In this document: one piece after another, positions 22,960-25,020 of the stretch
How the letters are laid out: each line of letters starts with the position of its first letter
How positions within the stretch are numbered: position 1 is the stretch's first letter
Source of the DNA: Verrucomicrobiota bacterium
Lineage (GTDB): Bacteria; Verrucomicrobiota; Verrucomicrobiia; Verrucomicrobiales; Verrucomicrobiaceae
Direction of reading: 5' to 3'
DNA length: 40,461 nt
NCBI GenBank assembly: GCA_009885695.1
Contig: VFKE01000013.1
Coordinates: 1 to 40,461, forward strand
Program-made: the position numbers and the translations under genes
Notes under the pieces: generated by a model
What the model was told of the DNA's origin: nothing
Seen by the model: the letters and a program-made list of their open reading frames with translations, nothing else
Databases searched by the model: none

Positions 22960-23697
22960 ATGACCCGCCCCGCTCCCTTCACCTTTGCCGCCGCACTGCT
23001 CTTTGGTGGTTTGTTTTCCACTTCCCAGGCTGAGGAAAAAACTTCCAAGCCACCTTCCAAAAATCCGGCAACGACAAGAGCCGACGCCTCGCCTGCAAAA
23101 CTCGGCCTGGCTGATGATGGCAAGACCGGCCGCCTGCCCAGCCACACTACCGGCCTGTCCGATCTTGCCGCGCAGGCTTTCGCGCGAAAGGATTGGGAAA
23201 GGGCGCGCGGCTATTATCTGAACATACTCGCGACTGAGCCTGACAATCCGCTTACTCTCGCTAACATTGGAGCTGTCGAGCAACAGGCAGGCCGCTTGAA
23301 GGAAGCGAAAAATTACCTGCTCCGCGCCGTGAAGATCAATCCCGCGCTCCAGCAGACCTGGCTCGCGCTCGGTCTCGTCTGTCACGAGATGGGTGATTCC
23401 TATCTCGCTCTCTCTGCGTTCACCCGCGCCGTCCATGAAGATCCGCTTGATCCCAAAGCGCACAACTATCTCGCCGTGGTCGCCCGCAGCCTGGGCTGGC
23501 TCGACGCTGCGGAGGCGGAATTACAGCGCGCCATCGAACTGAAACCCGACTACGCCAACGCCCATTTCAATCTCGCGCTGATGTATCTCGATCGCAAACC
23601 GCCGTCCGTGGAGCTGGCTAGGCGGCATTACAACAATGCAGTCGCGCTCGGTGCGGAGAAAGATGGCGTGGTGGAAGAAAAGCTGAAGGGGAAGTAG
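22960..23697 (+). CDS. Secreted tetratricopeptide-repeat protein
   Basis: A 245-residue protein with a signal peptide (MTRPAPFTFAAALLFGGLFS, then TSQAEE). A low-complexity Lys/Ser/Pro linker follows to about residue 45. From about residue 65 there are four TPR units, for example WERARGYYLNILATEPDNPLTLANIGAVEQQAGR (written here as a type, in two halves: DWERARGYYLNILATEPDNP and LTLANIGAVEQQAGR) and ALQQTWLALGLVCHEMG. It probably acts in the periplasm or at the outer membrane as a scaffold; the partner is unknown. Divergent from lexA, 60 bases between confirmed elements. The stop codon at 23695-23697 lies inside the left arm of a palindromic repeat. Confidence 0.85.
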   Translation: MTRPAPFTFAAALLFGGLFSTSQAEEKTSKPPSKNPATTRADASPAKLGLADDGKTGRLPSHTTGLSDLAAQAFARKDWERARGYYLNILATEPDNPLTLANIGAVEQQAGRLKEAKNYLLRAVKINPALQQTWLALGLVCHEMGDSYLALSAFTRAVHEDPLDPKAHNYLAVVARSLGWLDAAEAELQRAIELKPDYANAHFNLALMYLDRKPPSVELARRHYNNAVALGAEKDGVVEEKLKGK

Positions 23698-23767
23698 CAA
23701 GGGCGTCTCGCCCTTGTTTGGCTCCATTATGATAGAGTCTTAGACAAGGGCAAGATGCCCTTGCTAC
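23694..23767. repeat. REP-like palindromic element containing the TPR stop codon
   Basis: The left arm (23694-23717, starting GTAGCAAGGGCGTC) and right arm (23744-23767, ending GATGCCCTTGCTAC) are 24-base inverted copies with two mismatches. Each arm also folds on itself (CAAGGGC with GCCCTTG). The spacer is 26 bases. The TAG stop of the TPR gene is in the left arm, so the element was inserted at or across the gene's end, or supplies its terminator. Confidence 0.8.
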
Positions 23768-23787: not shown

Positions 23788-25020
23788 GTGACTAACGAAT
23801 TCACCAGCCAAGAACTCCGCAACATCGCCGACGCCGGCCTGCTGCGGAAACTGCGCACACTTGAATCCCCGCAAGGGCCTCTGATCAGGCTGGAAAATCG
23901 CGAAGTCATCAACTTCTCATCGAACGACTACCTGGGCCTGAGTCAGAATGAAGAACTCCAGAGCGCCATGACGGAAGCTGTCGCGCGCTTCGGCGTGGGC
24001 TCTGGCGCGTCCCGACTGATTTGCGGAAATCTCGCCGCGCACGACCAGCTCGACCAGACCATCGCCGCGTTCAAAAACACGGAGGCGGCGCTCGCGTTCT
24101 CCAGCGGCTACGCCACCGCCCTGGGCACCTTGCCCGCGCTCTGCGGAAAGGACGACACCATCATCCTCGACAAGCTCAGTCATGCCTCACTGATCGATGC
24201 CGCGAAACTGAGCGGCGCGGCGTTACGCGTGTTCCCGCACCACAACCTAGACAAGCTCGCGCACCTTCTGAAATCAACCCGCGCAAAATCATCCAGCACG
24301 CGCATCCTTGTCGTTACGGAAAGCGTCTTTAGCATGGACGGCGACGCCGCGCCGCTGCGCGAAATCGTGGAGCTGTGCGAGACGCATGATGCCATGCTCC
24401 TGGTGGACGAAGCCCATGGCGTCGGCGTGCTCGGCCCGGGCGGGCGCGGTCTGGTCGCGGAGCTTGGACTGGAGAAGCGCGTGCCCTTGCAGATGGGAAC
24501 GCTCGGCAAAGCACTCGGCGTGAGCGGCGGTTACATCGCAGCATCGCGCGGCATGATTGATCTACTCATCAACAAAGCACGCAGTTTCATCTACTCGACC
24601 GCTCCGCCACCCGCCGTGGCCTGCACGGCGACAAGAGCGGTGGAGATCGTGCAAAGTGTACACGGTGATGAACTAAGAAAAAAGCTTCGCGAGAATCTCA
24701 ATAAAGCGCGGGCCTTCAGCCCGCACTCTTCAATTCCACACGGCGGGCTAAAGGCCCGCGCTCCATTAGCAGCAATCCTACCAATCATCATCGGTGACGA
24801 ATCCGTCGCGATGCAAACCAGCGCCGCTTTATTGGAGCGCGGCTTTCTGATACCAGCGATCCGTTATCCCACCGTGGCTCGCGGCAGCGCTCGACTGCGG
24901 CTCACGCTAAGCGCCGCCCATGAAACGATCCAGATCGAAGGACTTGTCGCGTGCCTTCACGACTTGATGTCGAAGCTGGGGAGCACGGTTGAACATCCGC
25001 TGCAAGAACCCGCCAAATAG
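23788..25020 (+). CDS. bioF: 8-amino-7-oxononanoate synthase-like alpha-oxoamine synthase
   Basis: A 410-residue PLP enzyme. Family signatures are NFSSNDYLGLS, SGASRLICGN, TESVFSMDGDAAPL, DEAHGVGVLGPGGRG and the PLP lysine in MGTLGKALGVSGGYI. BioF condenses pimeloyl-thioester with alanine in biotin synthesis; related enzymes make ketobutyrate- or sphingoid-type products, and no other biotin gene is nearby, so the substrate is not certain. The start is GTG at 23788 (an ATG at 23778 is out of frame and stops after five codons). A palindrome of 58 bases lies in-frame at 24705-24762, encoding an unusual segment in a normally variable loop. The 3' end overlaps the convergent glycosyltransferase by 114 bases. 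Confidence 0.85.
   Translation: MTNEFTSQELRNIADAGLLRKLRTLESPQGPLIRLENREVINFSSNDYLGLSQNEELQSAMTEAVARFGVGSGASRLICGNLAAHDQLDQTIAAFKNTEAALAFSSGYATALGTLPALCGKDDTIILDKLSHASLIDAAKLSGAALRVFPHHNLDKLAHLLKSTRAKSSSTRILVVTESVFSMDGDAAPLREIVELCETHDAMLLVDEAHGVGVLGPGGRGLVAELGLEKRVPLQMGTLGKALGVSGGYIAASRGMIDLLINKARSFIYSTAPPPAVACTATRAVEIVQSVHGDELRKKLRENLNKARAFSPHSSIPHGGLKARAPLAAILPIIIGDESVAMQTSAALLERGFLIPAIRYPTVARGSARLRLTLSAAHETIQIEGLVACLHDLMSKLGSTVEHPLQEPAK
24705..24762. repeat. Palindromic element inside the bioF reading frame
   Basis: GCGCGGGCCTTCAGCCCGC (24706-24724) is mirrored by GCGGGCTAAAGGCCCGCGC (24743-24761): 18 of 19 positions pair, and the flanking A/T extends it by one. The loop is 18 bases. Despite this the bioF frame runs straight through (residues translated as ARAFSPHSSIPHGGLKARAP). 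Such elements are usually intergenic; here it is coding. Confidence 0.85.

Follow-up and report, generated by a model that had tools for sequence, protein, structure and literature searches.

How does a hairpin-forming repeat come to lie in frame inside the gene of a core enzyme? Palindromic repeats within protein genes mostly come to notice as isolated oddities. The case considered here lies in bioF, within a 40,461-nucleotide stretch of DNA (the window) that is contig C133 of a verrucomicrobial genome assembly (G000; 3.47 Mb, 216 contigs). REPIN/RAYT systems are miniature elements made of two inverted REPs, together with a Y1 transposase. The bioF gene of the window holds a real in-frame insertion of a REPIN-like element. 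In the reading that we consider probable, this 62-bp palindrome is a copy of a REPIN-like family, likely moved by a RAYT transposase and tolerated in frame since the encoded stretch is predicted to be disordered.

The Palindrome in the bioF Reading Frame

The bioF gene (23788..25020, plus strand) encodes 410 aa from a GTG start and is predicted to specify 8-amino-7-oxononanoate synthase. Its product matches Aminotran_1_2 in a domain search and solved BioF chains in alignments, and it has the alpha-oxoamine synthase sequence and fold expected of BioF. A previous, sequence-only reading of the locus had placed a palindrome inside an otherwise intact coding sequence, and this description holds: the frame is open throughout, with the element in frame. 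The element (24703..24764) encodes residues 306-326 of BioF (KARAFSPHSSIPHGGLKARAP), that is, 21 residues where about 19 had been proposed. By the alignment gaps counted, the local stretch exceeds that of the Burkholderia BioF chains 5jay and 6onn by five residues. In the predicted structure, residues 314-323 have pLDDT values below 50, and the element-encoded stretch of BioF is predicted to be disordered. The insertion may have been tolerated because of this predicted disorder; BioF with the element would still be functional and the insertion probably neutral.

The element is composed of two tagged halves that face each other across an 18-nt spacer (24725..24742). The left half (24703..24724, plus strand) consists of the tag AAAG and the hairpin GCGGGC-CTTCA-GCCCGC, other copies being GGAG-tagged, while the right half (24743..24764, minus strand) has a GGAG tag followed by its hairpin. 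The core arms (24705-24724 and 24743-24762) pair at 19 of 20 positions, and the 19-bp stem with one mismatch and an 18-base loop that had been proposed is correct to within one position. They belong to an extended inverted repeat (24700..24767) with 25-nt arms (24700-24724 and 24743-24767) that are 88% complementary and 18 nt apart. The predicted RNA fold of 24700-24770 reaches -40.5 kcal/mol (z -7.46), and none of 200 dinucleotide shuffles was as stable. With up to three mismatches allowed, the arm pattern matches twice in the window, both times at the element's own arms, against an expectation of 0.00.

A second palindrome lies upstream of bioF (23694-23767), with 24-nt arms, a 26-nt spacer and GTAG at both ends. 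The left GTAG overlaps with the stop codon (TAG) of the open reading frame 22960-23697.

A Dispersed Family of Tagged Hairpins

Is the palindrome peculiar to bioF? It had been proposed to look for the stem elsewhere in the genome, and the search finds a palindromic repeat with further copies on contigs C77 and C186, which brings the paired copies in G000 to three. As in REP and REPIN elements, the hairpins are short and tagged; they are scattered through the genome and arranged as inverted halves with a spacer of 18 nt (bioF), 17 nt (C77) or 4 nt (C186). The C77 copy (C77:11347-11405) is a full inverted pair, and at C186:36486 the 25-nt right arm of the bioF element (24743-24767) recurs exactly, with its inverted partner 4 nt away. 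Similar residues encoded by DNA that lacks the palindrome, which would have spoken for convergence, were not encountered where DNA could be read. A palindrome arisen by chance, or convergent residues at the bioF loop, might draw on the GC-rich region and on the natural variation in loop length (17-43 residues in 124 loops). The stability of the fold, the zero expectation for the arm pattern and the exact 25-nt recurrence on C186 all argue the other way; with the dispersed copies already contradicting it, we give this explanation practically no credence.

The C77 copy is common to G000 and G001, a genome of the same genus, at the same place and with the arms and most of the spacer conserved; the repeat family therefore predates the split between the two. 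Its half motif, a tag plus a hairpin, has the consensus GGAGC-GCGGNC-TNNA-GNCCGC. The exact half motif matches 75 times in 15 of 57 genomes, against one match for the reversed pattern, and a looser version gives 12 matches in G000 (some of which are not hairpins) against two for the reversed control. By hand count, the free stem pair is complementary in 72 of the 75 exact copies (A-T in 63, C-G in six, G-C in two and T-A in one) and not in the other three. The stem is thus kept by paired changes of four pair types, as in REPs and REPINs. The tag is GGAG in family copies and AAAG/GGAG in bioF, which sets the family apart from the GTAG superfamily.

In-frame copies inside other proteins were sought with the loop region of one BioF relative (P0002), a search that reaches only proteins sharing exact words; it returned three BioF proteins among nine candidates and no other shown to hold a copy. 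Six large open reading frames in relatives overlap the half motif. Five are without domain matches, and the one at L061 has its best domain match at residues 88-353, outside the half motif near the N terminus. In the frame over the C77 copy (L011), domain matches start at residue 126, beyond the copy. No clear internal insertion appears among these six frames and L011.

Contigs C20, C77, C107, C109 and C158 of G000 carry members of one more hairpin family, with GCGGGCANNNTGCCCGC or the complementary sequence, in places beside CAGGC...GCCTG hairpins.

Association With RAYT Transposases

Which protein could mobilize such a family? Matches to Y1_Tnp (PF01797) are found in 54 of 57 genomes, with 17 in G000. 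In genome G024, five halves surround a RAYT gene that encodes 227 aa on the minus strand (L135:1423-2106). Two of these halves have one and three mismatches, and the halves delimit units of about 155 bp. This gene is the sole clear flanked case among 50 RAYT loci scanned; one other locus (L107) has a single three-mismatch match, and the shuffled control gives one match. When the G024 RAYT protein was used as query against 68 family genomes, 30 loci were fetched and scanned. At up to two mismatches the half motif lies on both sides in two of the 30 (L254 and L258), with none at the other 28, and the reversed motif in none of the 30. L254, which is the same gene as L135, has a pair on one side, the other side showing one half where the contig ends; L258 has paired halves on both sides. 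A looser scan of nine loci, run without a control, adds L255 and L257, where both flanks share the tag and stem but have CTCCGA as the loop. Flanking halves are hence seen for four of the eight fetched RAYT homologues at 65% identity or more, a ninth (G069:C94) being outside the fetched set.

Paired copies around RAYT genes, the association known for REPs and REPINs, are therefore present in four relatives (G024, G079, G061 and G059), with units of about 155 bp in G024 and G079. At 26 of the 30 fetched loci no flanking halves were found (two-mismatch scan, with the looser scan for nine), barring a pair with another stem at L273. Within G000, the exact motif flanks none of the 17 Y1_Tnp loci, and the homologues nearest to the linked RAYT are 41-47% identical to it. 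We infer that the repeat family is likely moved by RAYT, and that a RAYT (Y1 tyrosine) transposase likely carried the element into bioF.

The pair at L273 (1359-1418; G000:C111) is a 60-bp pair of GGAG-tagged hairpins with a different stem, and it precedes a RAYT gene of G000.

Carriers and Non-carriers Among BioF Relatives

Two protein searches, each represented by the top 120 among some 8000 scored proteins, yielded 132 distinct BioF proteins. Arm peptides at the bioF site are present in six of the 132 listed: the window protein (P0001) and P0002, P0003, P0006, P0007 and P0029, the latter five being known as carriers from protein alone. P0029 departs from the BioF frame after the loop, and P0064, matched by a partial BioF of G001, stops before it. 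A scan of contigs for relatives gave none at first; with alignment, the best 80 of 581 loci included none above 60% identity.

The arm peptides used for a reverse-complement test were chosen after the alignment had been seen; they permit exact reverse complements in five of the six carriers and fall 2 of 20 nt short in the window, whereas random peptide pairs (n=3000) never gave fewer than three mismatches. Arms crossed between carriers are 0 to 4 nt off. P0006 carries a distinct arm subtype (GARASRP...GRDARAP), and a cross between subtypes, P0006 left with P0003 right, also gives 0. In P0003 the left arm has S in place of F and the right arm E in place of K, and in P0006 too both arms differ at once. 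How could the two arms change in step? Correction in place may be responsible, but loops of the CTCC kind of P0003 also exist in the wider family (CTCCGA), and insertion from a different donor accounts for the coupled arms of P0003 equally well.

Relatives without the element do exist, as anticipated (G001, P0004 and P0008). The clean gap of the same size that was expected in them is not seen: they have 15 codons (45 nt) fewer, against 21 codons in the element, as if about six codons had been replaced. In G001, whose bioF is split across two contigs with the loop whole within one, the loop has 20 residues against 35 in the window. The insertion would thus have swapped about six codons, turning a 20-residue loop like that of the nearest element-free alleles into one of 35. 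The window loop is the longest in an alignment with 30 relatives (one row without loop). Among the listed BioF proteins, however, loops of up to 55 residues lack these arms, so loop length alone is no mark of the element.

Four BioF proteins with long loops (P0047, P0050, P0051 and P0078) share DRLKP.LQQ or RLAPLLEHPEKAA-like peptides, which may, judging by protein alone, represent another in-frame repeat.

Was the element gained once or several times? In a tree built from the 292 columns before the loop, for 35 rows picked from the list, the distribution of carriers takes six changes, and again six over the 5-95% bootstrap range, with at least four forced by well-supported branches; shuffled carrier labels take 5.7 on average. 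FastTree likewise interleaves carriers with non-carriers. These results bear on the possibility that bioF received the element once, in an ancestor, and that the insertion was kept in some lineages and lost in many, while template-switch correction of the quasi-palindrome kept its arms alike. The agreement of carriers in site, frame and near-constant length is consistent with such a history, as are loop peptides that by our own reading may be eroded arms, in P0024 (a possible right-arm remnant) and less clearly in P0019, P0013 and P0018. Template switching is also described as homogenizing inverted-repeat arms in coding genes (PMC8604942). On the other hand, many separate losses would be needed, the tree changes being as numerous as with shuffled labels. 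Moreover, the loop start N-[IV]-x-A-V, alike by eye in seven element-free proteins (G001, P0004, P0008, P0011, P0012, P0016 and P0025) and read as ancestral, would be hard to regain after loss. An old insertion with many losses is therefore unlikely.

The carriers in different lineages would instead be the outcome of insertions that recurred or of loop alleles that were exchanged. Under exchange, a single insertion would have been followed by homologous recombination that spread the part of bioF with the element from lineage to lineage. Across 395 aligned residues P0003 and P0008 agree at 376 (95%), although the element is present in P0003 alone; they show no difference over residues 1-204 and 19 differences after, resembling a recombination mosaic. 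In addition, carrier loops have exactly 35 residues in four cases, 36 in one and 30 in one, whatever the length in their sisters (19-25), and the four at exactly 35 fit related alleles better than separate insertions. Against this stand the widely different spacer peptides of the carriers (HSSIPHG, LHDTEYS, LPFIYEN, LHGNKES and PAESELR) and the other arm subtype of P0006. Allele exchange is a possibility to be taken seriously, although we stop short of calling it probable.

Other Palindromes in bioF Genes

Do palindromes enter other bioF genes? DNA was available for 125 bioF loci, at least three of them the same gene twice and two being the halves of G001, and 124 show the loop. Coding-sequence palindromes with a score of at least 14 occur in three of the 125: the window, L195 and L203. 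At L195 (2955-3027), the bioF of a named Verrucomicrobia MAG has a perfect 26-bp inverted repeat (GGTAGGGACGCG...; 26 of 26 pairs) in the same loop and in frame. Its arm matches 15 times in its own genome with up to two mismatches, against 0 for the reversed control; two of these matches look by position like the arms in bioF itself. At L203, an in-frame palindrome with GTGG tags covers codons 149-169 of the bioF match, away from the loop. Here the arm has 37 matches in its genome and the control 0, two again looking by position like the gene's own arms. The same bioF loop is thus occupied by two different repeat families in distant genomes (the window and L195), and the three cases hint that it is a tolerant site.

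It is also conceivable that the hairpin is retained for a role in the bioF mRNA, such as pausing, stability or attenuation, and is not a mere passenger. The strong predicted RNA hairpin would suit such a role, as would the fact that both arms change together in P0003 and P0006. Close relatives manage without the element, however, such palindromes are confined to three of 125 bioF coding sequences, with one of them elsewhere in the gene, and donor copies that differ, since CTCC-type loops exist in the family, account for the coupled arms as well. We regard an mRNA role as very improbable.

Returning to insertion by RAYT, the more far-reaching form of this reading takes the codon position in bioF as a landing pad. 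REPINs moved by RAYTs would have entered it in frame repeatedly in Verrucomicrobiota, each replacing about six codons with a palindrome of 21 codons whose arms, and with them two separated peptides, then changed together through hairpin-templated correction. We put this forward tentatively. Repeated insertion and allele exchange are rated close together, and no separation between them is claimed. If the landing pad is real, selfish hairpins supply a core enzyme with novel loop residues.

Comparison With Known Systems

The kind of element is already known. Intragenic REP dimers have been published, including in a verrucomicrobe: in the text of Di Nocera et al. (2013, PMC3733652), dimers or groups that encode 20-30 aa make up over half of the REPs inside genes, and the highest number of intragenic GTAG REPs is given for Opitutus terrae. 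The authors suggest that REP insertions in flexible loops may be neutral, and they point to recB, in which two Xanthomonas species have REPs at nearly the same position, a precedent for insertion at one site (PMC3733652). Like the bioF family, the intragenic dimers described there (GTAG/CGTC) are tagged hairpins, often inverted dimers, mostly intergenic and in some cases in frame. Two differences are apparent. Firstly, the tags listed in that text are GTAG and its GYAG, GYRG, GTRG, GTMG and GTGG forms, or CGTC, whereas the bioF family has GGAG, a string not found in the main text (PMC3733652). Secondly, bioF offers a single site with carriers, near-identical non-carriers and two arm subtypes.

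Among the papers listed in a literature search, those that mention RAYT lack GGAG, and for 8-amino-7-oxononanoate synthase with a palindromic insertion only work on BioE in Elizabethkingia came up. With REPIN/RAYT systems the family shares its two inverted halves and, in relatives, RAYT genes flanked by paired copies. It differs in its low copy number in G000, where none of the 17 Y1_Tnp loci is flanked by the exact motif and movement is presumed.

The sequence-only reading had likened the element to Rickettsia palindromic elements. The likeness stands as an analogy, both being palindromic repeats that enter protein genes in frame, in the rickettsial case unrelated ones (PMC10969869). It fails on size and host: the rickettsial elements, as described in that source, are about 150 bp and encode a conserved peptide, while the bioF element is 62 bp, verrucomicrobial and built from RAYT-linked halves, which places it outside that group (PMC10969869). 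Its nearer kin are the intragenic REP dimers (PMC3733652).

Measured against the main text of PMC3733652, two features look new, the tag GGAG and a patchy turnover seen at a single codon position, and the family adds a RAYT-linked group whose tag lies outside the REP catalogue given there. The bioF loop provides a natural series: some alleles carry the element and near-identical ones lack it, the arms fall into two subtypes, and an unrelated family occupies the loop in a distant genome. This series bears on how mobile hairpins enter proteins in frame, on their neutrality, and on the constraint that arm pairing places on protein change.
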